Part shown: positions 2,456 through 36,635 of the stretch, one piece after another
Layout of the letters: every line of letters begins with the position of its first letter
Numbering within the stretch: the stretch's first letter is position 1
Virus record (IMG/VR): IMGVR_UViG_3300030060_000419
Location: 1 to 36,635 of that record
DNA from: a virus
Length of the DNA stretch: 36,635 nt
Direction: 5' to 3' (one strand)
Notes under the pieces: model-generated
The model's database searches: none
Told to the model about the DNA's origin: nothing
What the model saw: only the letters and a program-made list of their open reading frames with translations
Position numbers and translations under genes: made by a program

Positions 2456-4993
2456 TTATCTAAATGGATTTATTTCAGGTGATCTATCAGGAAGTCCTTG
2501 TCCACCACTCCACCAATAATCTCTACCTGTATTTTTTCTTTCCCTTTTTTCCTTTCTTTGTCTTTTTTTGTTAAAATCTGGATCTATCATTTCTTGCAAA
2601 GTATCTACAATTAATCTTTCAAATGCTAATCGAACATACCAAAGTGATGCTCCAGGAGTATATCTTTTTATAAAATTAGATATATCGCCACCCATGTTTA
2701 CTTTGTAATCATCATCTATAAAAATATTTGCACCCATTTTAAGTGGATTGACAATTGCTATATTTGCTAAATCGTAAGCAAAACTTCCAACTGGCCCAAC
2801 AATTGTTTGACCAAATCCACCGCCAAATCTGTTATTAGATGAATAAAAGAAATCACCAAATATACCTAAACCACCACCATGTATCATCGCATTTAACCAA
2901 TATTTTACATCCATGTTTTCTACTGGAGTAACATCTTTACCTTTAGTAAGATTTTTTAACTCATACGTTAATGCACCAATAATAGTTGTACTTATAACTA
3001 ATCCAGCTAATGCACCTATTTTTCCAGTTAAATTTTTTTGTCCAAACAATGCTCTAGCAATATGTGTATAAGCCATTGTTAATGTAAAGTTTTTATACAT
3101 GGCAGCTGAAAACAATAGCTCGCCACCAAATGTACCTGGTCGGCTGTTACCCATCAAACTAGCTTTAGCTCTATAAGAACTAGATGGTACAGCAAAATTT
3201 ATTTCTCTATTAACACCATCCATTAATTTATTTGCTATTTCTCTAGCAAGTTCTTCACCAATACCTGTGTTTGCATAAATATCGTCTGGTCTAATAAATT
3301 GTACGCCTTTGTATTCGTACATTGGTGTTTGTCTAATAATGTTCCAATGTGTTTCATTTAAACCATTACGTTCAAAAAAACCTCTAAATTTAGGATTTAA
3401 TTCTGCAAATGTTTTATCTTTTTGTCTAGCTATATGTCTAAACATCTCCATACCAAAACCAAACTTACCAGCTTGTGTTATGTGTGATAATCCACTTGCT
3501 CGTAAAATTGTTTCATTTACTCGTTTTGCAAGTTCAGGTGAATAAACTTCTCCTACATATCTAGCCTGGGCGGAGCTTACAGTTAAAAAACTTTCACCGA
3601 TTATACCAGCTGACATAGCCATGTCTGCAAGTTCATCGCTTGTCATACCTTTTGTAAATTGTCTAAGACTAGAAAATATAGCTCTCGTAGCTGGTATACC
3701 ATTCATCTTAGCTGCAATACGAGTAAAGTTAAAATCACCTAGTGCTAAGATAGATGCAGATCCCAGCTGGGCAGCTGTTAATATTTGTCTAGTACCAGCA
3801 AGTGTCCTGGACACAGAAGCATCTACTGGATTATTTAATGTGCCTTGATGCAATCTCCATATATTATTTAATAAATTTATTTTTGCACCAGTTCTATCTT
3901 TGTTAGTTCTACCAGGTAATTGATTTTTTCTTTTTAATCCTTGTTGATCGTCTATAGCTGCTTGTTTTTTTAAATAATCAAACATCCAATTTATTGTTGC
4001 ATTAGGATTTGCACCTAATACTTCCATTGATGCAATATCCCTGGAGATACTATCAATATGCCCTACTACTGTAGAAAATGGATCTGATTGTCCAAATTTT
4101 TTTTGATACGCAAGCCATTTATCTGCATCAGAAAAAATTAAAAAACGATGATCTGTTCTTCTGCTAGCTATACTTTTACCAAAACCAGCTGCACCACCAG
4201 GGCGAACTTTGTTATAACCTTCTGTGGTAATAGTATTCCAAACATCACCAAGTGCAATACGCAAACTGCCTTCATTAAATGGTAAACCAGTTTTTTCATC
4301 AATCATTTTTTTCTTATCAAGCAGCGGTAAAATAAAATCTATCCAATCAGCTTGCCCCATTTTTTGTAATGCTACTGGATCATGGTGTTGCGGCATACCA
4401 TAATTTTTAAGTTTTGGTATTTTGCCACCAGCTCTATTAAATCTAAGTCTTGCAGCTTCTAAAACATTACTGGCAGCTTCTGCTAATTCTCTAGCCATAG
4501 GATTTTTTGTGCTACCAGGAGTAAACATTTCTCTTACTACATCATCCATAAGATACTCATTTCGTACACCACCAGTAAAAGTTTTTTTAAATTTTGTTAT
4601 GTAATTAGTCATTTGTGAATACAATTGACCTCTTACTGTAGTGTATCTTGTTTCAAGATCTGTGAAAGGCATCCTGTTGTTAGATGATAATACAGCAATC
4701 ATAGCTTCTGCTGGATCTAACTCACCAGCAACATTTCTAAATGTTTGTATAAATTTTAATATTCTTGTTTGTGCTTGTATCGTTAATAATGATTGTCGTT
4801 TTTTTTCTGCTGCATTTGCTTTCAATGCATCGTATGTTGCACGACCAGCTTCTCTTTCAGCATCAGCTTTAGACATACCTTGTGCAATAAAATCTTTTTC
4901 AAATTCTTTAAAATTTTCTTGTAATTCTGTTTTTTTTGCATCGCCAATAATACCTTCGTTATTAGCGTTAATAATACACTCATTAAGACTCAT
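2456..4993 (-). CDS. Internal virion (core/ejection) protein, 845 aa
   Basis: A large, mostly helical protein at the end of the T7-like internal core cluster. I use the ATG at 4993, which overlaps the upstream stop (ATGA) and has AAGGA 9 nt before it. A TTG start at 5002 would add three residues. A charged helical N-terminus is followed by long amphipathic stretches, one clear hydrophobic segment near residues 660-682 (LAGLVISTTIIGALTY), a Gly-rich region near 708-738 and a basic tail (KKRQRKEKRERK). Known for podoviruses: the last large core proteins are ejected and help form the channel across the envelope. I see no lysozyme motif. The role is assigned by position and size. Confidence 0.72.
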   Translation of the reverse strand: MSLNECIINANNEGIIGDAKKTELQENFKEFEKDFIAQGMSKADAEREAGRATYDALKANAAEKKRQSLLTIQAQTRILKFIQTFRNVAGELDPAEAMIAVLSSNNRMPFTDLETRYTTVRGQLYSQMTNYITKFKKTFTGGVRNEYLMDDVVREMFTPGSTKNPMARELAEAASNVLEAARLRFNRAGGKIPKLKNYGMPQHHDPVALQKMGQADWIDFILPLLDKKKMIDEKTGLPFNEGSLRIALGDVWNTITTEGYNKVRPGGAAGFGKSIASRRTDHRFLIFSDADKWLAYQKKFGQSDPFSTVVGHIDSISRDIASMEVLGANPNATINWMFDYLKKQAAIDDQQGLKRKNQLPGRTNKDRTGAKINLLNNIWRLHQGTLNNPVDASVSRTLAGTRQILTAAQLGSASILALGDFNFTRIAAKMNGIPATRAIFSSLRQFTKGMTSDELADMAMSAGIIGESFLTVSSAQARYVGEVYSPELAKRVNETILRASGLSHITQAGKFGFGMEMFRHIARQKDKTFAELNPKFRGFFERNGLNETHWNIIRQTPMYEYKGVQFIRPDDIYANTGIGEELAREIANKLMDGVNREINFAVPSSSYRAKASLMGNSRPGTFGGELLFSAAMYKNFTLTMAYTHIARALFGQKNLTGKIGALAGLVISTTIIGALTYELKNLTKGKDVTPVENMDVKYWLNAMIHGGGLGIFGDFFYSSNNRFGGGFGQTIVGPVGSFAYDLANIAIVNPLKMGANIFIDDDYKVNMGGDISNFIKRYTPGASLWYVRLAFERLIVDTLQEMIDPDFNKKRQRKEKRERKNTGRDYWWSGGQGLPDRSPEINPFR

Positions 4994-7900
4994 ACTACAC
5001 AATCCTTCAATCTAGTTATTATTGCCTGGTCGTTTTCTATATCGTTCAACACTTGTCTTGCTGATACAATTTCAGGCACTACTTCATCGTTTTCTAATTT
5101 AGTTCCAACAGAAAATTCTGCATCTTTAAATTCATCTATAATTTTTTGTTCAGGTGATAATTCTACAGTTTTTTGTACTGGTATTTTTGCTTCTAATTTT
5201 TTTACTTCTTCAATTTTTCTTTGTATTTCTTTTTCTAAAAATTCATATCTTTTACCTCTTTTTCCAAAAGCACTTCTAAATGGTGTTTTTTGTAACTCTC
5301 TTAACTCTAAAATTAATTTTTCAGTTTCAGCTTTTTTTGTATTAATTTGATCTACAAGATCTAATCTTTCTTGTACTTCTCTAGTTATTGGTGTTGCAGC
5401 TGTTTCGCCTTGTATCTCGGCTTCCATCCGAGCAAATTTTTCGTTTATATCTTCTAGGCCAAAACCTTTTTGTTCTGTTTCTCTTTTTCCTTCTCCTTGA
5501 ACTTTTGTTCTAGTCTGTTTGCTAGACTTTTCTCCGAGAGAAATCCCACCCTGATTTTCGATGAGTATGGGTTGTTGTCCTTCTTTGACGTAGTTGTCGA
5601 TTTTTTTGTAGCCATCTGCTAAATTACTCTCCTTTACTTGTTTATATACTAGGTTAGGTTTATCAGCAACATCTAGTAAATATGCATGATTTATCAATCT
5701 GCCAGTTTCTAAATATCGCACAAATGCTCGTCTATACGACTCATCACCAGGAATATCTATATTGTGTAGATATACCTTATAACCTTGTTGTTTAAATAAT
5801 GATATTTTTTTTGCAAGAGATGCAAAGTCTGCACCTACTACTGGATATACAATATTATACCCTTTTTCAGCTGATCTTACAGCTAAATCTGCAATAACAT
5901 CTGCACTTTCCTCATGTATAACACCAGCTCCTAAACCATTTTCATATTCTGGAAAAAACTTTTTTGCTTCATCAGGATCTATAAGTACAGCTCTTAATTT
6001 TTTTATTAATGGTGTAGCTTCAATAGAAGATTTACCACTACCTGGTTTACCCATAACAAAAACTATTTGACGATTTGCTTTTGGCTTTCCTCTAAATACT
6101 TGATCTTTTGCAAGTTGATGTCCATTTCTTGCTTCTAATGAATTAGCTATCGCCTGGCGTATTGCTACCCTTTCAGGCTCGTTCATTATGCTTTCAGTAG
6201 TATCTAATTTATTAAGTGCTAACTGATCTGCTTCGTATTGATCGATAGCATCATCTAAATTTTTAAATGGTGGTAAGTTTTGTTTTTCTCTAGCTTTATT
6301 AATATTAAATAATGCTCTTGTAATAGTAGATGCATCAATTTTTTCTAATATTGGTTTTACAATAGATCTATCAATAAGATCTGTATCTCGTAAAACTTCA
6401 TCAACGCCAAACTCTCCTCTTTCAGCTTTAGCACTTACATCAAAAACTTCTTCTAATTGATTTTGTAAATAATTACCTTGTGATACTTGTCCTTCACCAG
6501 CTGGTTCACTAAATTTAGTTTCTTCTATTGTTGGTGTTAGATCTTCTTCTTCAGCGAATTTCGTACTCGTGTCTGGAGATTGTGCATCGTTCCCAGATCG
6601 GCTAACATCGAACCCATCAAAATCGCCTCGTTCATTTGCTCGTTCAACTGCGACTCGGAATTGTTCGATAGCTGCTCTTTCGTTCCCATTTGCATGTAAG
6701 ACTGATGCATTGTTAAGCTCATCGGCAAGAGGCTCTCCTTTGCGGAGGGCTTTTGTTTCGATGAGTTGTAAGATTTTTTCATTTATTAACTCCTGGTTTT
6801 GATTGTATGCATCATCAAGAACATTTTTTCCTGATGAGTTTATTTTAGTTTTGTTTAAATTTAAACCTTTAAATAAAGTTTTATTTGCTTTTAATGCTTT
6901 TATTACAGCATCCAATATATCTGCCTTATTTTTTACTAAAGATGATGTAATAAATTCTGATCCTAATAGATCTATTTGTTCAGTTGTATTAAATTTACTA
7001 TCTAATGCTTGTAAAATAATACTTCTGGCCTTGTTTAAATTTTCAGGTTTTGTTTTGTTTAGCAGCTGCAAGATAGGTAAATGTAAACTTTTATCATTTA
7101 CCAGCTGTGCAACAAGTGCAGCATGGCTTGACTCAGCTTGTCCTCTAGCTAATAAATCAAATGCATCATCGGCTAATGACTCCAGGGCAATAGCTTCTCT
7201 TACCATTACAGATCTAGGTGGTAATGCTTTTTTAAAATTTTCAAAATCTGCTTTGTTGAGTCTTAATATTTTTGCTGCATCTACAGCTGTGCCGCTACCT
7301 TCTTGTATATTTTTTATAGCTGCCCAAACTTTTATTTGATCTGGTGAATATCCATCAGCTTCTCTATACAAATAACCAAACAATCTTGGCTCTTGTCCAT
7401 CGTTTTGTGCTTTTATTCTTTTAGCTAAACCTAATCGTTGATGTCCATCTGCTACGACTTTACGACCATCTAAAAATTCATAAGCAATAATGACATTAGC
7501 TGCATGTGGATTCCACTCAGTTACACCTTTTAATCTTTCTGTAACACCAAACTCATCACCACCTTGTTTGTATTGAAAAATAGTTGCATCTGTTTCTAAT
7601 TCATCAATTTTAAATTCTATTTTATTTGCAGAATAATCTTTTAATCCTTCGTCTAATGTAATAGTTGGTCTTTCAGCGTTTGGTGTATTTTCTAAAACTA
7701 AATTTTCTGTGCCTTGATTTATTCTTTCTTCATGTTCTAATTGATTTTTAACTGTGTTTTCAAATGGATTATTATCAACATCAAATTGTTTGTTCATCTC
7801 ATTTTCAAGAAATGCTCTTACTTCTGGAGTTTTTAATTCATCTGGTAAATTATTTATTAATCGCATGGTTGCAGTTTTAGACAAACCATTAATACTCATC

Positions 7901-8871
7901 TCTACTATTTGTTTGTAATTAAGATCACCAGCATCAATCATTTTGTTTAGTTCTTTACCAAACCATGCAGCCTTATCTTTTTTCAATAATCTGCTATCAT
8001 TAAATGCATCAAATTGTGCTTTTGTAAATTGACCAGATCTAAATAATCCTAAAACAACATCACCTAAAATACCACTTGCAACAGCTACAGTTGTTATTGC
8101 TGTTACAGCTTCTTTAGCTGTGTATTCAATATCTAAAACATCATTGTTATATTTATAAACATCTTTTTGTATTACAGTTTCTGCGACACCACCAATCAAG
8201 GCTTCTACTGCAAAAGTTTTTAAAAATTGCATACCAATAGTGCCTGACCATGACCAACCACCAGTTACAACACCAAGTGGTAAAGTTCCTAAAACTACTG
8301 GATCTGTAATACCAGCTCTCATAGATCCTAATAATTGCCCCCAGTTCCAACCACCTAATCCTGGTTGAGCATTAGCCATTACATCTCTATTAATTGCCCA
8401 GGCTTTTTGTGCATTTTCAACAACCTCTTTATCTATGTCATCTCTTGTTTTTACATTTGCAAATTTGTCTGGTTGTTCTTTTTTTAATCTATCTACTTCT
8501 GTAAAATACCAATCAAGATGTGCTTCTCTACTATTTAAAAAATCATTAAAATCATAAACATCATCTCGTTCCATCAAATCATCGTTAAATGATTTTGCAA
8601 AGTTTTCTACTTCAGGTACTCGTATTGTATCACTATGATTTACAAATAGTGGATTTGGATTTATTTCACCGCCAAGCTCGGCAATCATCTGATCGTTTAA
8701 GGTAAATATTTCTGTAAATGCAGATATTTCTGAATCAGATCGTAATCGTGCAAAAAAATCATTTTTTGCTGCTTCGTAGTTTTGTGCAAAATCTGTGCGA
8801 AAACCTTTGGCTTTATCAGTTACAGTAAAACTAGATAACTGACTACCAGGATCAAAAAAAATACCAGCCAT
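4990..8871 (-). CDS. Giant internal virion protein with ParB-like and zeta-toxin-like domains (polyvalent-type)
   Basis: A 1293-residue protein in the internal core cluster. Residues 1-150 are a charged helical N-terminus and 190-275 are hydrophobic and Gly-rich. Residues about 415-560 resemble a ParB/sulfiredoxin-like domain (VVADGHQRLGLAKR at 472-485). Residues about 930-1090 resemble a zeta-toxin P-loop kinase: Walker A GKPGSGKS at 941-948, IDPDEAKKFFPEY from 964, and RR at 1047-1048 with R1052 and R1058 in a DESYRRAFVRYLETGR stretch. The C-terminus (1160-1235) is coiled coil. Zeta kinases phosphorylate UDP-N-acetylglucosamine, but the substrate here is unknown. Such domain mixtures are known as polyvalent proteins, thought to enter the host with phage or plasmid DNA. 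Packaging and injection are inferred from gene position. No antitoxin is evident next to it. Confidence 0.85.
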   Translation of the reverse strand: MAGIFFDPGSQLSSFTVTDKAKGFRTDFAQNYEAAKNDFFARLRSDSEISAFTEIFTLNDQMIAELGGEINPNPLFVNHSDTIRVPEVENFAKSFNDDLMERDDVYDFNDFLNSREAHLDWYFTEVDRLKKEQPDKFANVKTRDDIDKEVVENAQKAWAINRDVMANAQPGLGGWNWGQLLGSMRAGITDPVVLGTLPLGVVTGGWSWSGTIGMQFLKTFAVEALIGGVAETVIQKDVYKYNNDVLDIEYTAKEAVTAITTVAVASGILGDVVLGLFRSGQFTKAQFDAFNDSRLLKKDKAAWFGKELNKMIDAGDLNYKQIVEMSINGLSKTATMRLINNLPDELKTPEVRAFLENEMNKQFDVDNNPFENTVKNQLEHEERINQGTENLVLENTPNAERPTITLDEGLKDYSANKIEFKIDELETDATIFQYKQGGDEFGVTERLKGVTEWNPHAANVIIAYEFLDGRKVVADGHQRLGLAKRIKAQNDGQEPRLFGYLYREADGYSPDQIKVWAAIKNIQEGSGTAVDAAKILRLNKADFENFKKALPPRSVMVREAIALESLADDAFDLLARGQAESSHAALVAQLVNDKSLHLPILQLLNKTKPENLNKARSIILQALDSKFNTTEQIDLLGSEFITSSLVKNKADILDAVIKALKANKTLFKGLNLNKTKINSSGKNVLDDAYNQNQELINEKILQLIETKALRKGEPLADELNNASVLHANGNERAAIEQFRVAVERANERGDFDGFDVSRSGNDAQSPDTSTKFAEEEDLTPTIEETKFSEPAGEGQVSQGNYLQNQLEEVFDVSAKAERGEFGVDEVLRDTDLIDRSIVKPILEKIDASTITRALFNINKAREKQNLPPFKNLDDAIDQYEADQLALNKLDTTESIMNEPERVAIRQAIANSLEARNGHQLAKDQVFRGKPKANRQIVFVMGKPGSGKSSIEATPLIKKLRAVLIDPDEAKKFFPEYENGLGAGVIHEESADVIADLAVRSAEKGYNIVYPVVGADFASLAKKISLFKQQGYKVYLHNIDIPGDESYRRAFVRYLETGRLINHAYLLDVADKPNLVYKQVKESNLADGYKKIDNYVKEGQQPILIENQGGISLGEKSSKQTRTKVQGEGKRETEQKGFGLEDINEKFARMEAEIQGETAATPITREVQERLDLVDQINTKKAETEKLILELRELQKTPFRSAFGKRGKRYEFLEKEIQRKIEEVKKLEAKIPVQKTVELSPEQKIIDEFKDAEFSVGTKLENDEVVPEIVSARQVLNDIENDQAIITRLKDCVV

Positions 8872-11258
8872 TATTGTTGTAAAGTCAATATTTTATCTTT
8901 CACTAAATTTAGATTTAAAACAAAATATCCATTGTTGCCACCAGTAGATGTACCTATGTACTGTGGATCTGTATTATTCCAAGGTTGATTAAAAGATACA
9001 ACATAGACACCATCATCTATAACCCATAAATAAGGTTGATCTCCTTCTCTATTAAATATACTTTCTTTATCACTGCTTAATTTAAAATTACCTGTTGTTT
9101 CACCATACTTCCACTCAGGTATTTGTCCATTTAACAAATCATCTGAATAAACACTAACAACTAAATTTACTGTTTCTTCAAATTTTTCTGTATCCATCCA
9201 TGAAGGTATAACAGTTGTTTGTCCATTGTATTCACCAAAGCCACCATATTTTCTGCCACCTACTGTGTTTTGTCCTATAAGTTCTTGCACTATAGATGCG
9301 TACAATTTTTTGTCTAAAAATTTACTATCACTCCCACTAGCTCTTTCAATGTAAATAAATTGTGCTAGGTCATAAATATTATTCATAAATGTGCTATTGA
9401 CCTGATGTAATGCTCCATCAACAGTATCGCTAAATACTGTTCTTACATCATCTAAACGATTATCACCTTCACCACCAAAAAATATTTGTTGCGACATTAG
9501 ACTTGTATTATCTTTTTTACTAAAACCATTTAAGAAATCTGTACCAACAGCCATTGTTGTAATGTCAAAATCTCTAGTATTCATAAGACCAGCTATGTGT
9601 GCAAAATAACCAGCTTCGTTTTTACCTTCACCTTTGTATAATATTTCAGAAAATACTGTGTCTGTATCTTCTCCAAATGTAGCAAGTCTTTTCATAATAA
9701 ATATTTTTGTATCAACATCTGTTTTTGGATCTTGCCAAATATTCATCAAAGATATTTGATCTGCTTTAGTTAAAAAATTATCTACAGTTGTAGGATATTT
9801 TGCTTTTACTATTTCACTTTGTGCTTGTCTTGTTGTTACCCAGTTGGCAAATTCTTCATCACTTGCATTAACCCAATCAATACTTTCTAAAGTAATTAAG
9901 TTTGTAGTGTTTGCCCAATTTAATGAATCATTATTTAGTTCAGTTTTCATTTTATTAAAAACTGTCGTTAAGGCTTTTTGTTTCAATAATAGTTCATTTG
10001 TTACACCTGGTATAATTGTTTCTACTTGACCAGTAGCTGTCGATATTTCTGTTGGAATATTTTTTTTCGTAATTTCTGCATTAACTTCATTAAGTTCATC
10101 TTGTAGCTCTCCAGTATTCATTTGTAATGCTGTGTTATAAACTCCATACATAGCGATATAATCTTTTGCTTTTTGCACAGTTACATCATCATCGTATGCT
10201 TCAGCTATAGACATTATTTTGCTGAGTTGCTGCACTCCATCTTCAGGCATATTACCATCATCTAACATTTTTGTTATTGATGTTAGTTCGTTTTGATTTG
10301 CTTTTATGGCTTTGTTTGCACTTGTAGTTGATTGATTATTAATAACATTAACTGCGTTTTGTGCTTTTATTTCTAAATCAGATCGCTGGGCAGATGATAG
10401 ATTTGGAAAAGGATAATTTTCTGTATCTTTTGCTAATTCTAAAAAAGCAACAGGATCATTTGCAACAGCCTTTTTTGCTCGTATAAATTCTAAGTTACCT
10501 CTTGTAACTGACATAGCAACTTCTGGTGTTGTATTAATTATACCGCTTTTAAATGCTTCTTCATGGATGCCTTCTACTAATACTTTACCATCAGTATCAT
10601 ATTTACCAAACAATCTATCTTCAGCTACTTTTTGTTGCATTAGATTTCCATATTCATAATCATAATACAATTGTTTCAGTTCTTGCTCGTAGTTATTTGT
10701 AGCAAACTCCAAACCAGTTTTAAAAGATCCTGATGCTACACTTACAGCACCTGATATTTTTTTCTTATCAAAACTTAAAAGAAAATCTCTTTTAACTACA
10801 TCATCATCAATCTTTGCAGCAATTTTATTTTTCCAATTTTCTGCTGCATTGTTATAATTTACTTCATTATTTTGATAATCTGCACTTGTTGAATATTGTA
10901 AGACAAGTGCATTTAGTCCATCATCAATATCATTACCATCCATAGCTAAATTCATATTTTCAGTAAGTGAATTAGATCTATCAAGTTTTAGTTTTCTTGC
11001 TAAATAATCAACTTCATTTTTTTCTACTTGCTCATATAATTTTAGTTCTTGTCTTTTCTTTTCTTCATATTTTATTGCATCATTTTTTTCTTGTTGACTA
11101 AATAGATCTAAACCAACATCCAAACCAGTTGCAGCAAGTTTATTTAATTTATCTGATACAGCACTAAAATCATTTGGATTAACACGCAGCTGTGTAAATT
11201 CTCTAGCTTGTGATTTATTAATACTTTTTTGTGATTGATACTTTCTAATTTTTACCAT
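8871..11258 (-). CDS. Internal virion protein, 795 aa
   Basis: A large, Asn/Asp/Lys-rich, mainly helical protein with a basic N-terminus (MVKIRKYQSQKSINKSQAR) and no membrane segment or catalytic motif that I recognise. Its stop overlaps the start of the 1293-residue gene (TAATG), and its own start overlaps the stop of the preceding 216-residue gene, so the core genes are translationally coupled. Position after tail tubular B and the gp13-like and gp14-like genes suggests an equivalent of the T7 gp15 ejection protein. No sequence similarity to gp15 is claimed. Confidence 0.7.
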   Translation of the reverse strand: MVKIRKYQSQKSINKSQAREFTQLRVNPNDFSAVSDKLNKLAATGLDVGLDLFSQQEKNDAIKYEEKKRQELKLYEQVEKNEVDYLARKLKLDRSNSLTENMNLAMDGNDIDDGLNALVLQYSTSADYQNNEVNYNNAAENWKNKIAAKIDDDVVKRDFLLSFDKKKISGAVSVASGSFKTGLEFATNNYEQELKQLYYDYEYGNLMQQKVAEDRLFGKYDTDGKVLVEGIHEEAFKSGIINTTPEVAMSVTRGNLEFIRAKKAVANDPVAFLELAKDTENYPFPNLSSAQRSDLEIKAQNAVNVINNQSTTSANKAIKANQNELTSITKMLDDGNMPEDGVQQLSKIMSIAEAYDDDVTVQKAKDYIAMYGVYNTALQMNTGELQDELNEVNAEITKKNIPTEISTATGQVETIIPGVTNELLLKQKALTTVFNKMKTELNNDSLNWANTTNLITLESIDWVNASDEEFANWVTTRQAQSEIVKAKYPTTVDNFLTKADQISLMNIWQDPKTDVDTKIFIMKRLATFGEDTDTVFSEILYKGEGKNEAGYFAHIAGLMNTRDFDITTMAVGTDFLNGFSKKDNTSLMSQQIFFGGEGDNRLDDVRTVFSDTVDGALHQVNSTFMNNIYDLAQFIYIERASGSDSKFLDKKLYASIVQELIGQNTVGGRKYGGFGEYNGQTTVIPSWMDTEKFEETVNLVVSVYSDDLLNGQIPEWKYGETTGNFKLSSDKESIFNREGDQPYLWVIDDGVYVVSFNQPWNNTDPQYIGTSTGGNNGYFVLNLNLVKDKILTLQQ

Positions 11259-11908
11259 TACAATAATCCTTTTTGTGATAACAATGAAATATATTTATTT
11301 TGATTATCAATATAATCTTTTTGAAATTTATTCTGACTATCAATAATAGCTTTGTTAAATGCGTTTTGTGTTGTTATAGATTTGTATTGTCCATAACCAC
11401 CTAGTAAAGATGTGCCAGCTCCTACAATACCATTGAAACGAGCAAACTTACCTTGCATCTTTGATATTTGTGCTTCTGTTCTAAATTGATTTGCAGCATT
11501 GATTTGTGCATTGGCATTTAGTTGTGCTTCATATCTTATGTTTGCTTTTTCAATATCTGATTGTGTTCTGTTTGCAGCTAAAACTTCAATAACACTTGGC
11601 GAGTCAAATGTTACACCAGCTTTGGCATAATTAACAATATTATCACTTTGAAAGGCTTGGAAATCTACTTCTTGTTTTTCAACAAGCTGCTCTCCTACTT
11701 CTATAGCAGCTACTGCATTATTATCTGCAATTGTTGCATTTTGATTTGCTATAGCAGCGTTTGCATCTGATGCTGCTCCTTGTTGAAAACCACTTACTAC
11801 ACTTGTAGCAGCACCTACACCAGCACTTGCTAAAGCAATAGTTGTTGGTTCGTAGTTAGCTAACTGCATAGCAAAACTATCTTCTGGAGATCCAGGCGTT
11901 TTAATCAT
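11258..11908 (-). CDS. Internal virion protein (T7 gp14-like position)
   Basis: 216 residues: a short N-terminus, a small-residue hydrophobic stretch near 24-45 (ALASAGVGAATSVVSG), a long Ala/Asn/Gln-rich helical region and a second Gly/Ala hydrophobic patch near 160-175 (FNGIVGAGTSLLGGYG). This pattern of a long helix between two Gly/Ala-rich hydrophobic segments is typical of small podovirus core proteins that enter the outer membrane on ejection. It overlaps the stop or start of both neighbours by a few bases. The functional call comes from composition and order. Confidence 0.7.
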   Translation of the reverse strand: MIKTPGSPEDSFAMQLANYEPTTIALASAGVGAATSVVSGFQQGAASDANAAIANQNATIADNNAVAAIEVGEQLVEKQEVDFQAFQSDNIVNYAKAGVTFDSPSVIEVLAANRTQSDIEKANIRYEAQLNANAQINAANQFRTEAQISKMQGKFARFNGIVGAGTSLLGGYGQYKSITTQNAFNKAIIDSQNKFQKDYIDNQNKYISLLSQKGLL

Positions 11909-12351
11909 TTGTAAATCCTCGCATATCTTAAATAATCTAATTCATTTTGGTACTTACGCATCTCACCTTCAAGCTGCATACCTAACCACTCGGCAAATTT
12001 TTTACCCATATCAAAATCTTTTTTGACAGCTGTTTGTAATCGTACGACATCGTATTTTTCTACTAAAAAATTTAATCCCTTTTTAATTACTCTAGCAGCT
12101 GTAACAGGATTTTGTTTTGACAAATCACTTGCCATAACCCAACCTTCATAAACACCTTGCCACAAAGGTATTATCCCACCGCTACAGATAATATTTTTGT
12201 TATCATCAATAGCAGTAAAACTCATGTTCTCTACTTCAAGTCCATCTAGTAATGGTCGTAGATCTTCTTCTACTTGTGTGTATGAACTATTCATTATACC
12301 TTGCACCATGCTGTGTGCGTGTTCATTTTTAAAAGGTATAAGACTAGCCAT
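11905..12351 (-). CDS. GNAT-fold-like internal virion protein (T7 gp13 / DUF2833-like)
   Basis: 148 residues with the layout of a GNAT acetyltransferase-like fold: MASLIPFKNEHA start, a central strand and turn (SFTAIDDNKNIICSGGIIPLW), and a C-terminal segment NFLVEKYDVVRLQTAVKKDF followed by WLGMQLEGEMRKY. In T7-like phages a protein of this kind (gp13 family, DUF2833) lies right after tail tubular B and is needed for virion assembly. I cannot see an intact acetyl-CoA pyrophosphate loop, so enzyme activity is doubtful. It overlaps the tail B stop by 8 nt and its neighbour's start by ATGA. Confidence 0.72.
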   Translation of the reverse strand: MASLIPFKNEHAHSMVQGIMNSSYTQVEEDLRPLLDGLEVENMSFTAIDDNKNIICSGGIIPLWQGVYEGWVMASDLSKQNPVTAARVIKKGLNFLVEKYDVVRLQTAVKKDFDMGKKFAEWLGMQLEGEMRKYQNELDYLRYARIYK

Positions 12352-14332
12352 CGTAAGTTGTAAACTGTGGGAACAAAGCTATTACGTTCATTGGTAATGG
12401 TTGATTTTGTTGTATGACAATAAAACCATCATTATCGTAATCAGCATTGAACTCTATTTCTTTATCACCAGTAAATAAAGGCACGGCTGTGTCCATATCA
12501 GCTGCACTAGATCTAAATGGTACTCGGTCTAAATTACTTGTATCTTTACCTACTAATAATCCAACAGTTTCAAATAATCTAACTACCAGGTTATGTATTC
12601 TTTTTATTTTACCCTGGGCAGTACCATCCTGGCTGCCAGCTTCTAATCGCATTGTTTGTAATGTAGAATTATAACTAAGACCTACTTGTACTTTTGTTGC
12701 AGATCTATCTAATGTTATAGATCCACTTGATACTGTTTTGTTTGGATGAGATGATCCATCAGCTAATATTGTAACAGATTGACCTTCTAAATGACCAAGA
12801 CCAGTAATTGTTGATGTAGCACCACCACTGTAACTTAATCCTGAGTCTACAAAAAATGCATCTGTAAGATCTGATCCATAATCAAATGGTTGTAAATATT
12901 CTACATATCTCCTGGTTGTGCCATTGATAGTCCTTTTAACAATAAAGTAAGTTACATCTTCGTTTAGATCTCCAGGAATAGTTGCAACACTTTCTACAAC
13001 TGCATTACCTGAACCAAACACACCACCAAAAATATGTCTATGCCATCCAACAACTTGCTCATTTCTTTGATAAGTAAGGCCACATACTTGCCCATCTTCT
13101 CGTACACACCATAGTATGGAACTTGGTTCTTGCATGTATGACATTTCAGTAATACCACTATCTGTAATATGCTCGGCAAGTATTGTAAGATCTGGAGCTA
13201 TAAAACCATCTGTGTCGTAATTATATACAAGTTCTCTAACTTTTCTTTTTGCTCTTTGTAAAAACATTGTTGCGTTACCAATAGGCACTGCATCTATTTC
13301 TGATGATCCATAACTTGATTGTTTTTTTATCTGTATGTTTGTTGGCGTTATAGGCTCAGAAGATGATGATGCTGTTACAGAAAATTCACCACCTACTGTA
13401 CCAACAATTAAACTTCTTGTTTGTGTTAAATATCGTATTGCATTTACTTTGTTTGATGCAATTGCATAAGTCATACCATCAGCTGCATTACTGCCAACAG
13501 TAAAATCTTCTATGTCTGTAGTTTTAGAAAAAAATATTTTTTGCGGATCATTATTAGTATTTGCAAAAACTAATCGCTGTTCATAAAAAGTAACACATGA
13601 TGGAAAGTTATCTGTGCTGCCAAAAGGATTGCTTGTAAAAGAAGGAGTTGCAAGAGTCCAGTTTGTATGTGCTGTTCTTGATAGTTTTCTTGGAGCATAA
13701 GTAGGATGTGCTAAATACATAACATCTGCGCTTTGTGCAAATTTTACATTAGGTATATCAGCAGTAACATAAGGAGATGCTATTTCGTAAATGCGAGAAG
13801 CTGTGCCACCAGAAGCATAAGCTGTGTACGCACTTGAATTTATATTAGTGCCATCATAGTTTTGTAACTCAAAAGTATTTGTAGTTTTATTAGCTACCTT
13901 AAATGTAATACCATTGACTTGTGTCATACCTACTACACTACTAATAATTACATCATCACCATTAGAAAAACCATGTGAGCTTGCTGTAACCACAGCTGGG
14001 TTCGCTTGTGTAATACCAGTTATAGTTTTGGCAGCTTCTGTAATAATACCACCATCTCTATAAAATCTAATTTTTTGATTACTAAACTCCATGATGTAAG
14101 TATCAGTTGTTGAAAACTCAAAAGGTATAAGCCTTGTTTTGTTTGCACTGTTTTTTACTTCATGTGCAAATCTTGTGCCAGGTCGCCTTGATGCACCACC
14201 ATGAGGAAACACAGTAAAATTTTCTAATGTTTTTGCTCCATTAAAATATTTACCTAGATCTGTTCTACCATCAAGTTGCGGTGATAATTCACCAGCTGTA
14301 AAATTAGTAATTGCAAAAGATGCTCTTGCCAT
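12344..14332 (-). CDS. Tail tubular protein B (T7 gp12-like nozzle)
   Basis: 662 residues with the family's characteristic beginning: NFTAGELSPQLDGRTDLGKY at 10-29, then FTVFPHGGASRRPGTRFAHE and the first beta-propeller strands. The length fits the family (about 600-800). It forms the hexameric nozzle at the tail tip through which DNA leaves the particle. It sits directly after tail tubular A (3 nt between stop and start) and overlaps the GNAT-like core gene. The assignment is confident. Confidence 0.92.
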   Translation of the reverse strand: MARASFAITNFTAGELSPQLDGRTDLGKYFNGAKTLENFTVFPHGGASRRPGTRFAHEVKNSANKTRLIPFEFSTTDTYIMEFSNQKIRFYRDGGIITEAAKTITGITQANPAVVTASSHGFSNGDDVIISSVVGMTQVNGITFKVANKTTNTFELQNYDGTNINSSAYTAYASGGTASRIYEIASPYVTADIPNVKFAQSADVMYLAHPTYAPRKLSRTAHTNWTLATPSFTSNPFGSTDNFPSCVTFYEQRLVFANTNNDPQKIFFSKTTDIEDFTVGSNAADGMTYAIASNKVNAIRYLTQTRSLIVGTVGGEFSVTASSSSEPITPTNIQIKKQSSYGSSEIDAVPIGNATMFLQRAKRKVRELVYNYDTDGFIAPDLTILAEHITDSGITEMSYMQEPSSILWCVREDGQVCGLTYQRNEQVVGWHRHIFGGVFGSGNAVVESVATIPGDLNEDVTYFIVKRTINGTTRRYVEYLQPFDYGSDLTDAFFVDSGLSYSGGATSTITGLGHLEGQSVTILADGSSHPNKTVSSGSITLDRSATKVQVGLSYNSTLQTMRLEAGSQDGTAQGKIKRIHNLVVRLFETVGLLVGKDTSNLDRVPFRSSAADMDTAVPLFTGDKEIEFNADYDNDGFIVIQQNQPLPMNVIALFPQFTTYDG

Positions 14333-17769: not shown

Positions 17770-17987
17770 TTATCCTTACTTTGTAAAATATTATTAATAT
17801 AAAGAACAACACTACGCTGCCCTTCACGCAAAATTGTTTCAGATCTATCTGACACAAAAGTGCTGCTATTGAAAAAACATCTGTTTTTCAAATCTTGTAA
17901 AACTCTTTGTCCTTCTTCACTGCCAAAAACTATCTTGTAGTCTTTGTGCATTTGTTCAATTACTTTAATTGCTTCATCTTTAGCCAC
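17766..17987 (-). CDS. Bbp19-like small head protein
   Basis: 73 residues: DYKIVFGSEEGQRVLQDLKN, then STFVSDRSETILREGQRSVV. The paired elements VFxxxxGxxVLxDL and REGQRSVV are those of the Bbp19-like family found between portal and scaffold genes in BPP-1-type podoviruses. Function is unknown. It overlaps the portal stop by 8 nt and the scaffold start by 4 nt. Confidence 0.8.
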   Translation of the reverse strand: MAKDEAIKVIEQMHKDYKIVFGSEEGQRVLQDLKNRCFFNSSTFVSDRSETILREGQRSVVLYINNILQSKDK

Positions 17988-19566
17988 CTATTACCTCTTT
18001 CAATGCTGGTGTTGCTTGTCCAGCTGCTTTAGCTACTTGTGATCCTTGATCGATATCAAGTTGATCTTGTGCAGCTTGTTGTCTACTTTCTCTCATTTCA
18101 GTAATCTCACGATTAGATCGTAATACTTTTGATGGCACACCTAATACATCTGTAATATGTGCTGCCATCGCATCAGTATCTAATAGATCCATCACTGGTG
18201 CTACTTGATTGAGAGGAGCTAGTATTTCCATCGCCTGGACAATTGCCTGAACATCTTGCCCTCTTTGTGCTTTCGCTAATGGTGATACATACTCGATATC
18301 AATCTCTAAACCTTGCAATCCTTCTGGTGCTGGAGGTAACATCCCTTGACGCATTAGTATTGCAAAAGATCTTGATATTAGTGGTCGTAACATTTCTGCT
18401 TGTAATCTACCTAACACTGGAGCAAGCAAACGCATTTTTTCTTCGTTACGTTTCATAACTTCAGTAGCTGTCATTTGTACTGATTGCTCCATTAATAATT
18501 GATCGACAAAGTATGCTTGACGAATAGCTTGTCGTCTTTGTTCTTCCATGTTTAGACCTACTGGCGTATTTGCCTGGATCATTAATGGCTCTATTCGATC
18601 TCTTGAACCAGATCTATAAAAGTTTAAACCACCTGGAGTTGTCTTTATCGGTAAAATAAAACTATCATCTGGTACTAATAGTGGAGGATCTATTTGTTTT
18701 TGTGCTGCTCGGATAGTTGTTTCTGACATTTTGTTGAGCATTTTTATGTCTGCAAGTGCAATCATGCTCGGAGATCTTCCATAAACTTCGTTAGATGATT
18801 TACTCCATCTAGGTATTAGATATGGAAACTCCTCAAAACCACCAATAGATATTTCACTCATATCTTCTGGATCAAAATATACTGATACAAAAGGCATATT
18901 TTTATTATCCATCTTGTATGGATTTGCTTCATCGTTCGGCATTACAGCATGAATAATATCTATTTCCATGTATGGATCTTCAGCTGCTAGTTTTGATATT
19001 CTTCTACCAACATTTGCTTCACCAAACATCTCAACAACATTTCGTGATTGCATTTTACATTTTCTAAATACTGTATCTATTCTGCCTTTTGAATTTTCCT
19101 GGACATAGATTTCTTTTATGTGTCTTGTTGTAAATCGTAAAAGATCATCACTATCTTTTTCTATGAACATGCATGCTGTACCAAATGCACACAGATCTAA
19201 ATACAATTCATGTACTTCTTGTTGAAAGTTAGATCTATCAAAAGCTACATACATAGCTTGATTAGCTGACTCTAACCACTCGTTGTTTTCATCTGTAGAT
19301 AATTCTGGATCTTTATAACGCAAAGAGAACCAGGGGGTAGCTGCATTGGTAAGCATGCCATGTAGGGAGGAGCTTAATAAATCGAGAGCATGGAGAGCTG
19401 TTCCATCATAAATAAATTCAGTTCTCTTATCACCCCTGGATCTTTCTTTGTTTACGTCTGCTCTTTTAGGCAAAACGTAATCAGCGATCTCTTGCCAATG
19501 TGATTCCCAATTGCTTCGAAGATCTACTAACTTTCTATATTTACTAAATAATTCTGGTACTGGCAT
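17980..19566 (-). CDS. Portal (head-tail connector) protein
   Basis: 528 residues with the classic T7-like portal pattern: N-terminal LRSNWESHWQEIADYVLPKR, FIYDGTALHALDLLSSSLHG, SLRYKDPELS, FGTACMFIEKD, and the C-terminal region with QSVQMTATEVMKRNEEKMRL and GRLQAEMLRPLISR. Twelve copies form the ring through which DNA is packaged. It is coupled to the Bbp19-like gene and lies 1 nt after the 203-residue gene. Confidence 0.93.
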   Translation of the reverse strand: MPVPELFSKYRKLVDLRSNWESHWQEIADYVLPKRADVNKERSRGDKRTEFIYDGTALHALDLLSSSLHGMLTNAATPWFSLRYKDPELSTDENNEWLESANQAMYVAFDRSNFQQEVHELYLDLCAFGTACMFIEKDSDDLLRFTTRHIKEIYVQENSKGRIDTVFRKCKMQSRNVVEMFGEANVGRRISKLAAEDPYMEIDIIHAVMPNDEANPYKMDNKNMPFVSVYFDPEDMSEISIGGFEEFPYLIPRWSKSSNEVYGRSPSMIALADIKMLNKMSETTIRAAQKQIDPPLLVPDDSFILPIKTTPGGLNFYRSGSRDRIEPLMIQANTPVGLNMEEQRRQAIRQAYFVDQLLMEQSVQMTATEVMKRNEEKMRLLAPVLGRLQAEMLRPLISRSFAILMRQGMLPPAPEGLQGLEIDIEYVSPLAKAQRGQDVQAIVQAMEILAPLNQVAPVMDLLDTDAMAAHITDVLGVPSKVLRSNREITEMRESRQQAAQDQLDIDQGSQVAKAAGQATPALKEVIGG

Positions 19567-34927: not shown

Positions 34928-35091
34928 TTATTATCCTCTATTTCCTGTAATCTTTCTTGTTCAGCTTTTATATCTTCTAAAGAAATTGGTGTTGTACCCT
35001 CTAACCAATTAATATCTTCATCATAGTATGAAAAAATTGCATTTGGATTAAGAGATATAATTGCATCACCTAAAGGTATTTTTTTAGCCAT
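34924..35091 (-). CDS. XkdW-like small chaperone, 55 aa
   Basis: MAKKIPLGDAIISLNPNAIF, then NWLEGTTPISLEDIKAEQER and a short acidic helix. The PLGDAI ... W ... TPIS-EDI-AE pattern follows XkdW-like proteins next to fibres. Its start overlaps the previous gene by 8 nt and its stop overlaps the next start (ATGA). A role in fibre assembly is inferred. Confidence 0.7.
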   Translation of the reverse strand: MAKKIPLGDAIISLNPNAIFSYYDEDINWLEGTTPISLEDIKAEQERLQEIEDNK

Positions 35092-35599
35092 TAACAACCT
35101 CCATTATACAAAATCTACAAATACCATTACTACCACCATTGTTTGCATAAACTGTGCCACTGCCACCTCGTCTTTTGTACATACCTTGATATGTTCTAGC
35201 ACCACTTCCAGCAGTTTCCATAATATACATTAAAGTTATTGGCTCGTTGCTGTCATCTGTTGAATATTTAGTTGACATTCTTCCAGCCGCACCAGTAACA
35301 TAAGTAGAATTAGTTTTATCATATATTGTTAAATCAATATTTTTAGAACTTGTTACATACACATCTGATAAATGAAGATGAAAGATTAAAGCATTAGATG
35401 AACTTGTTGGAGTAAAAGATAATTCATTTCCAAAATATTGAAAACTATCTGATGATGTACCAACATCTCCAGAAAAATTAATACTACCTGTCATAGCTGT
35501 TTTAACTATTTTTCCTCCACCAGCTCCAGTTACAGTACCAGTAAAAGCAAAGTTTTGTGCTAGGTCAATAGAAGTAGGTAATAATTTAGTAAAAGGCAT
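35084..35599 (-). CDS. Fibre/receptor-binding protein, 171 aa
   Basis: MPFTKLLPTSIDLAQNFAFT is a typical beginning of small marine fibre proteins, followed by GTVTGAGGGKIVKTAM and a beta-rich body (NALIFHLHLSDVYVTSSKNI, SGARTYQGMYKRRGGSG) ending CRFCIMEVVNG. Probably a jelly roll-type tip. It overlaps its neighbours by 1 and 8 nt and is flanked by chaperone-like genes on both sides. Confidence 0.78.
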   Translation of the reverse strand: MPFTKLLPTSIDLAQNFAFTGTVTGAGGGKIVKTAMTGSINFSGDVGTSSDSFQYFGNELSFTPTSSSNALIFHLHLSDVYVTSSKNIDLTIYDKTNSTYVTGAAGRMSTKYSTDDSNEPITLMYIMETAGSGARTYQGMYKRRGGSGTVYANNGGSNGICRFCIMEVVNG

Positions 35600-35925: not shown

Positions 35926-36635
35926 ATTAATTTAAATCCTTGAAAAAAAGTAAATCTGCTATTTTCAGCTAATGTTTTATCGCTTCCAGCATTTTGAAAA
36001 GCTCTAACTCTAAAATAATCGCCAACACTCGCATTAACTAAAACACTCACACTTACAGTATTTTCATGGTCATGATAATGTCTTGCTTCTGCAATAGACG
36101 AACTATTTTGAAAAATTTGCACTTCAAACATATTAAAGTCTGCACTTGAAACAGATTTTATTTGTGCTTGAAGAAAATAAAGTCCTGCTTTCCCTGATGG
36201 CACAGTAAATCTCCCTGTTGATGTATCGTATGCACTATCTGAATCAAAAATTTCATTATCCATTGTAACATAAACTTCTGCACCTGTTCCTAAAGTTGGA
36301 GAGTTTGCTAAACTTGCTCTAAAATTAGGTGTATTATTTCCACCTACAGTAGCACTACCACCTAAAGAAACTGCTGAGCCATTTAATGTAATACTAGAGT
36401 TAGCAAGTTTTGAATTTGCAATACTACCAGCTAACATATCATTAGTAACTGTTCCTGTAGCTGGAGTTTGTGTATTCACTGCTTTTCCAAGATAGTGTAT
36501 CTCAACAATATCACTTGAAACTAACGTACCTCCTAATCCAATTCTAGTAGAAGTTGTAAGACTAAGATTTGTCGTATCTTGTTTTACAAAGTTTACGAAT
36601 ACAATTACATCAGCAATAGAACTAATAGCGTGGTC
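35922..36635 (-). CDS. Tail fibre protein with C1q-like end (3' part; start lies beyond the right edge)
   Basis: The open frame enters from the right edge (DHAISSIADVIVFVN) and ends ENSRFTFFQGFKLI. The N-terminal part and the linker VTNDMLAGSIANSKLANSSI match the gene at 1-428 almost residue for residue. The C-terminal half is a C1q/TNF-like jelly roll (NFRASLANSPTLG, GRFTVPSGKAGLYFLQAQIK, RVRAFQNAGSDKTL). The ATG at 36479 is internal: sequence before it is also conserved. On a circular map it is the same gene as 1-428. It would bind the host surface. Confidence 0.82.
   Translation of the reverse strand, partial: DHAISSIADVIVFVNFVKQDTTNLSLTTSTRIGLGGTLVSSDIVEIHYLGKAVNTQTPATGTVTNDMLAGSIANSKLANSSITLNGSAVSLGGSATVGGNNTPNFRASLANSPTLGTGAEVYVTMDNEIFDSDSAYDTSTGRFTVPSGKAGLYFLQAQIKSVSSADFNMFEVQIFQNSSSIAEARHYHDHENTVSVSVLVNASVGDYFRVRAFQNAGSDKTLAENSRFTFFQGFKLI
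36298..36635. repeat. Right copy of the end-to-end direct repeat (matches 1-338)
   Basis: It aligns without gaps to bases 1-338 (about 30 mismatches). Identity is perfect for the first 77 bases and lowest around 36500-36530. Both copies keep the same frame and mostly the same protein, so selection has acted on both. Confidence 0.8.

Follow-up and report, generated by a model that had tools for sequence, protein, structure and literature searches.

Why a phage should carry a ParB-like domain and a zeta-toxin-like kinase within one gene, amidst its internal virion genes, is the question raised by viral record IMGVR_UViG_3300030060_000419, all 36,635 bases of which were analysed (the window). 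The open reading frame (ORF) concerned lies at positions 4990-8871 on the minus strand, starts with ATG and encodes 1293 amino acids (aa). A first-pass annotation of the letters alone had placed both domains in this gene among internal virion genes, and this was borne out by Pfam and AlphaFold matches and by the flanking families phrog_418 and phrog_684. It had missed that several payloads, of which the kinase is one, can replace each other. We consider it likely that the ORF encodes a gp16-type ejection protein of an HTVC010P-type pelagiphage, which would deliver a zeta-like kinase attached to a ParB-like module to the host cytoplasm, where the kinase would alter host metabolism or defence. 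The gene and its parts are:

4990..8871, minus strand: predicted gp16-slot ejection/internal virion protein, 1293 aa, with gp16-like N-terminal region, ParB/Noc-like module, payload (zeta-like kinase) and conserved C-terminal tail
7672..8871, minus strand: putative N-terminal delivery region, residues 1-400, with a hydrophobic stretch at ~255-280 (hydropathy) and a conserved '..G....DP..' segment; phrog_342 is matched in relatives
6994..7638, minus strand: ParB/Noc-like NTP-binding domain (DGHQR at 476-480) and helix-turn-helix DNA-binding domain, residues 412-626 (AlphaFold, Foldseek)
6568..6984, minus strand: helical domain, residues 630-768, always following the ParB module (relatives and AlphaFold model)
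5137..6459, minus strand: payload cassette, residues ~805-1245, replaced or absent in sister phages; approximate limits, transferred from the breakpoints between sister phages L064 and L061
5572..6087, minus strand: zeta-like P-loop kinase, residues 929-1100, with K947, D967, R1052 and R1058 kept and P1010/V1012/A1014 at the positions of zeta E116/T118/R120
4993..5136, minus strand: C-terminal tail, residues 1246-1293 ('L.DIE.DQ.I..RLKDCV'), common to payload-bearing and payload-free versions, with a near-invariant Cys

Single-protein searches of viral contigs returned just near-copies or one relative. A four-row ParB alignment recovered 127 relatives from these contigs and a zeta alignment 84, and 80 were kept in each case. 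The payload tally, based on 59 non-redundant complete slot proteins, showed a RelA/SpoT-type domain in 24, a zeta-like kinase in 21, no payload in 13 and another domain in one (L076, ART). The profile of the RelA/SpoT-type payload (A7) had its best match to Tas1 (6ox6, 7e-23), a (p)ppApp synthetase and type VI secretion effector. Only L072 passed the Pfam RelA_SpoT cut-off (1.9e-13); Pfam missed most of these payloads, which were therefore assigned through their profile match to Tas1 and by comparing them with L072. The putative Tas1-like enzymes belong to sister phages; the window itself carries no such payload.

Payload exchange was most evident between L064 (zeta) and L061 (RelA/SpoT). Outside the ORF their DNA was 98.7% identical over 2.5 kb upstream and 98.7% identical over 2.4 kb downstream. 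Inside the ORF they shared 98.8% identity over nucleotides (nt) 1-2136 and 95% over the last 126 nt, with nothing alignable between. The same exchange was found between L035 and L038, and in L060 the payload was entirely absent. On the tree of the ParB module at least 18 payload-state changes were required where 3 would suffice, compared to 27.6 with shuffled labels, indicating that payloads are inherited but often replaced. The kinase slot is a recombination-prone site located between a constant front (gp16-like region and ParB module) and a constant tail of 40-50 residues. Near-identical phages carry a different enzyme there, or none, which gives the slot the look of an interchangeable weapon and not of a permanent component of the particle.

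A constant carrier with a swapped toxin is also the logic of the MuF polymorphic toxins (Jamet et al. 2017, PMC5576092), and the payload might likewise be a virion-borne toxin that targets rival bacteria or phages, or is connected with lysogeny, and does not aid the infecting phage. Both systems have a virion-associated carrier with an interchangeable enzyme domain; MuF proteins often carry RelA-like domains, some carry zeta domains, and MuF-borne synthetases have been shown to make (p)ppApp (Apk2, PMC12226406). The window phage also has an integrase gene. However, no MuF match was found in the window protein, its payload is internal and followed by a conserved tail, and the portal/head-tail adaptor gene is not adjacent but lies at 17980-19566. 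A small immunity ORF follows MuF toxins in 89.4% of cases (PMC5576092), but none would fit here, as the downstream gene begins ahead of the stop codon; the two genes share 13 nt in the window and, in nearly all relatives that carry a payload, 4 nt. We also found no epsilon/PezA-type antitoxin gene beside the ORF, in agreement with the first-pass annotation; its neighbours are virion genes that overlap it. The downstream gene was considered as a payload-specific immunity gene and rejected, as its family does not change between zeta-bearing, RelA/SpoT-bearing and payload-free versions. Among nine slot proteins from prophage-like loci in sequenced bacterial genomes (L181-L192, mostly Alphaproteobacteria), seven had no payload, two had a RelA/SpoT-type and none a zeta payload, which, small as these numbers are, also speaks against a MuF-like toxin. 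Altogether we regard such a toxin as very unlikely. As an observation in its own right, the mostly payload-free state of the prophage-like relatives may reflect selection against the payload in lysogens, or a clade effect.

Which reaction the payload of the window might catalyze was approached through its fold and conserved residues. The four motifs quoted by the first-pass annotation were all confirmed, namely VVADGHQRLGLAKR at residue 472 in the ParB-like part and GKPGSGKS at 941, IDPDE at 964 and YRRAFVRYLETGR at 1046 in the kinase. Pfam Zeta_toxin matched residues 930-1084 (4.8e-15, score 56, cut-off 22.3 bits), and the homology profile of this region gave 0 matches in 500 shuffles of the protein. 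NCBIfam and PADLOC held no match for the protein (P0001). A profile of eight relatives found PezT (2e-27) and zeta (3e-26) as the best chains in the PDB, with Pnkp1 at 1e-13. The AlphaFold model of residues 915-1115, built from a 50-row alignment, had a predicted local distance difference test score (pLDDT) of 91.7 and matched zeta (3q8x/1gvn, Z 19.0), PezT (Z 18.2), polynucleotide kinase (Z 15.7) and AvrRxo1 (Z 14.9).

The catalytic residues of zeta (K46, D67, R158 and R171 in zeta numbering) are kept as K947, D967, R1052 and R1058 and are invariant in 22 ParB-zeta proteins. Among the slot kinases 17 of 172 columns are invariant, including lysine and serine of Walker A, the two aspartates of IDxD and the lid arginines, and the ratio of nonsynonymous to synonymous substitution (dN/dS) between the window and L015 was 0.29 in this domain, indicating purifying selection. 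Other gp16-slot proteins do without a kinase, and the domain could therefore be imagined as structural filler or a dead enzyme in a protein of which the ejection function alone matters. Against this stand the invariant columns, the dN/dS value and the occupation of the same slot by unrelated enzyme domains, and we hold it to be extremely improbable.

A true zeta toxin would phosphorylate UDP-N-acetylglucosamine (UNAG) and thereby weaken the wall, aiding DNA entry or killing the host. The window kinase resembles zeta toxin and PezT (1gvn, 3q8x, 2p5t) in fold, which is the best match in both structure and profile searches, and in the Walker A lysine, the catalytic base D967 and the two lid arginines. 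Such a role has moreover been proposed for the zeta domains of MuF fusions and of polyvalent proteins from conjugative elements (Iyer et al. 2017, PMC5512222). In contrast to those toxins, the kinase is fused into a virion protein, lacks an adjacent antitoxin gene of the epsilon/PezA type, and has lost the positions that contact UNAG in the zeta-UNAG structure (T118, R120 and E100; PMC3062530), which are replaced by V1012, A1014 and A994, respectively. Zeta E116 is replaced by P1010, which is invariant in 21 of 21 slot proteins, while 36 of 41 other phage zeta domains have an acidic residue there. The stretch from E116 to R120 aligns without gaps from a common GYN and is firm, whereas the position of E100 is less certain. 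As the T-to-V exchange renders PezT nontoxic (PMC3062530) and the contact residues are lost, UNAG is an unlikely acceptor, and we judge a true zeta toxin to be quite unlikely. The suggestion of the first-pass annotation that the kinase acts on cell wall precursors is thereby weakened. The phosphotransfer machinery appears to be under selection, and the domain is probably a virion-delivered kinase with an acceptor other than UNAG. That all zeta payloads of the slot share P1010 suggests a dedicated pool. A different arrangement occurs on L126, where a 1724-aa ORF (5850-11024) has two zeta-like and two ParB-like domains in the reversed order zeta, zeta, ParB, ParB and its aligned zeta keeps the acidic residue.

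Polynucleotide kinase was the second-best fold family (Z 15.7) and Pnkp1 was found in the profile search (1e-13), so that a role in healing or modifying nucleic acid ends might be envisaged, for example undoing the action of a host nuclease or of a tRNA-cleaving defence on incoming DNA or on tRNA. The fusion of the kinase to a predicted DNA-binding module, which would bring it to DNA, fits this idea. On the other hand, zeta scores higher in both profile and fold and is also the family that the lid pattern R...R...GR fits, and no end healing would be expected of the RelA/SpoT-type enzymes that sister phages carry as payload. We therefore consider end healing unlikely and retain the interpretation of an ejected zeta-like kinase acting on host metabolism or defence.

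Structure prediction and profile searches recovered a second fold besides the kinase. Residues 400-800 were modelled with AlphaFold (pLDDT 83, with low values at the two ends), and model residues 13-227, corresponding to residues 412-626, matched ParB/Noc proteins (Foldseek E 7e-5, Z ~10), and the match covered both the NTP-binding and the helix-turn-helix domain. The ParB-like domain named in the first-pass annotation is thus present but larger than had been described. A DGHQR segment occupies the place of the canonical GERR, and the second motif contains the invariant N521 (model residue 122). No C-terminal dimerisation domain of ParB/Noc CTPases was identified in the window ParB module. The homology profile of the region had 0 matches in 500 shuffles of the protein, and a dN/dS of 0.20 in the module (window vs L015) indicated purifying selection. 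Together, these data argue for a real ParB/Noc-like module with predicted NTP-binding and DNA-binding domains. An hhalign comparison of the ParB profile with the single P1 DdrB sequence detected no relation, and for this reason we do not label the module DdrB-like. In L028, L039 and L052 the ParB module is followed by a second short ParB-like segment ('DGNSTY') ahead of the RelA/SpoT-like payload.

The assignment of the protein to the virion core comes from synteny and homology. Its immediate neighbours are:

2456..5002, minus strand: virion structural protein phrog_684 (phrog match), 848 aa, downstream; it adjoins the payload gene whatever the payload
8871..11258, minus strand: gp15-slot protein, 795 aa (position in operon)
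11258..11908, minus strand: gp14-like internal virion protein, 216 aa (phrog_418, 2.6e-16)

The operon in the window runs from the tail-tube genes over a 148-aa protein, the gp14-like phrog_418 protein, the 795-aa protein, the 1293-aa gene and the 848-aa phrog_684 protein to the tail fibre. This corresponds to the T7 gene order gp11-gp12-gp14-gp15-gp16-gp17. A profile scan of all ORFs in the relatives showed the order gp14-like, 795-like, N-ParB-payload and 848-like at most ParB loci. The 1293-aa gene therefore occupies a gp16-type position, after the gp14-like and gp15-slot genes and before the tail fibre genes. In eight of 31 relatives the N-terminal region matched phrog_342, the T7 gp16 family of internal virion proteins with an endolysin domain (best 4.9e-7), and L089 (6576-10334) encodes transglycosylase, ParB module and zeta-like kinase in one protein, combining a T7 gp16 feature with the payload. 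Judged from their sequences, these relatives support gp16 identity for the family. The window protein resembles T7 gp16 in gene order, size, a hydrophobic N-terminal region and a putatively DNA-binding C-terminal part; it differs in having no detectable transglycosylase. To our knowledge T7 gp16 has neither a ParB/Noc-like module nor a kinase payload. Searching the PDB with profiles of the N-terminal, 795-aa and 848-aa families produced no significant match; the strongest one, Gp29 of 9vvp (0.045, domain E 1.1), was not used. As a side observation, the gp16-slot protein has its near-invariant Cys 1-4 residues from the C-terminus ('RLKDCV'; 4993-5040 in the window, and in relatives), and the 848-aa family has an invariant Cys9 ('MS...CI'); the two are possibly linked in the particle.

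For T7 gp16 it has been described that the N-terminal part spans periplasm and inner membrane, while the C-terminal part, from residue 411, lies in the host cytoplasm and binds DNA; the core stack holds four copies, and six are seen once ejection has taken place (PMC8954989). With a similar topology in the window protein, both the ParB module and the payload, which start at about residue 410, would face the cytoplasm. We propose that a few copies of the gp16-slot protein are packaged and, at infection, expelled ahead of the DNA, with the N-terminal part inserting in the envelope and the C-terminal two thirds entering the cytoplasm. There the ParB/Noc-like module would bind the incoming (or host) DNA, and the attached kinase, if active, would phosphorylate a host small molecule, metabolite or nucleotide in the first minutes, altering host metabolism or defence to the presumed benefit of the phage. 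In sister phages the same slot would supply a RelA/SpoT synthetase resembling Tas1 or an ART domain, or would be empty. Delivery into the cell together with the DNA, which the first-pass annotation had put forward, is in our view probable given the ejection-protein slot.

Several points weigh against this proposal. The N-terminal region of the window protein has no significant phrog_342 match of its own, being too divergent alone, and the profile of the N-terminal family has no significant match in the PDB. The link to gp16 is drawn through the relatives, since the 400 N-terminal aa of the window as sole query matched nothing in phages even at E 1. Presence in the virion, for the window phage as for the payload-bearing relatives, is deduced from genes, and the kinase could instead be expressed by the phage and act late in the producing cell. 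By analogy with T7, with 4-6 copies per particle, an injected enzyme would have to be fast or its target rare. Finally, the payload is not essential in general, because thirteen relatives live without one.

With regard to the phage itself, the major capsid protein of the window showed 71% identity to that of Pelagibacter phage Lederberg and 70% to that of HTVC010P, and the terminase ~51% identity in the comparison with HTVC010P-type pelagiphages, which identifies the window as a phage of this type. The two ends (1-338 and 36298-36635) overlap imperfectly over ~340 nt with 91-95% identity, and the genome is therefore close to complete; the overlap may be an unmerged assembly overlap, from a circular or terminally redundant genome, or represent two variants. 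According to published descriptions, HTVC010P-type pelagiphages rank with the most abundant viruses of the sea; their known variable island includes an internal virion protein. In the corresponding late region of the cultured relatives, the polyvalent-protein domain LPD38 was detected in HTVC010P (L008 14832-16346, 9e-49) and Lederberg (L011 3953-7717, 2e-33).

RelA/SpoT domains are known from polyvalent proteins, as are zeta-like kinases, which occur in those of conjugative elements and as fusions to MuF (Iyer et al. 2017, PMC5512222). The first-pass annotation had likened the window protein to polyvalent proteins, and the comparison holds insofar as several unrelated domains, ParB-like and enzymatic, are joined in one large polypeptide among late virion genes. 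Unlike the polyvalent proteins with their DdrB-type ParB, RelA/SpoT and zeta-like domains (PMC5512222), the window protein has no metallopeptidase domain that we could find, its carrier is of the gp16 type of podoviruses, its exchange is confined to one defined slot between a constant front and tail, and its zeta subfamily is without the UNAG contacts. Halovirus HCTV-5 gp114 ('zeta toxin and ParB nuclease domain protein') likewise combines zeta-like and ParB-like domains in one 1293-aa protein, but belongs to an archaeal virus, has zeta first and ParB later, lies near a Mu gpF-like gene and shows weak similarity (24% over the zeta part). A literature search, which reached few subscription journals, brought up no account of a gp16-type ejection protein that contains an exchangeable payload. 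While the concept is known from polyvalent and MuF proteins, the swappable ejection-protein version appears to be new.

More broadly, ejection proteins of podoviruses might constitute a polymorphic platform for effector delivery. Set between an unchanging gp16/ParB front and an unchanging tail, exchangeable enzymes would enter the cytoplasm at the start of infection, among them zeta-like kinases of a clade with a new substrate other than UNAG and alarmone synthetases resembling Tas1. This would happen without immunity genes and in some of the ocean's most abundant phages. We regard this wider generalisation as evenly balanced. Little is known of the factors that phages inject besides DNA, and proteins of the gp16 slot tend to be regarded as plumbing. 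The host group of the window phage comprises the ocean's commonest bacteria, and given the very small size of SAR11 cells, a few injected enzyme molecules might plausibly have an effect. From the proline found invariably at the position of E116, a new acceptor is predicted for the kinase, and phage pairs that are 98.7% identical around the gene and differ just in the injected enzyme represent ready-made controlled experiments.

Elsewhere in the window, a 171-aa ORF at 35084-35599 had a weak Cas6 match in PADLOC (5.5e-4), which is probably due to chance. The tail tube B protein (12344-14332) contains an E1_FCCH-like domain at residues 113-179 (Pfam 2.4e-11), and the gene of the 534-aa tail fibre carries an imperfect 30-nt tandem repeat at 1083-1142.

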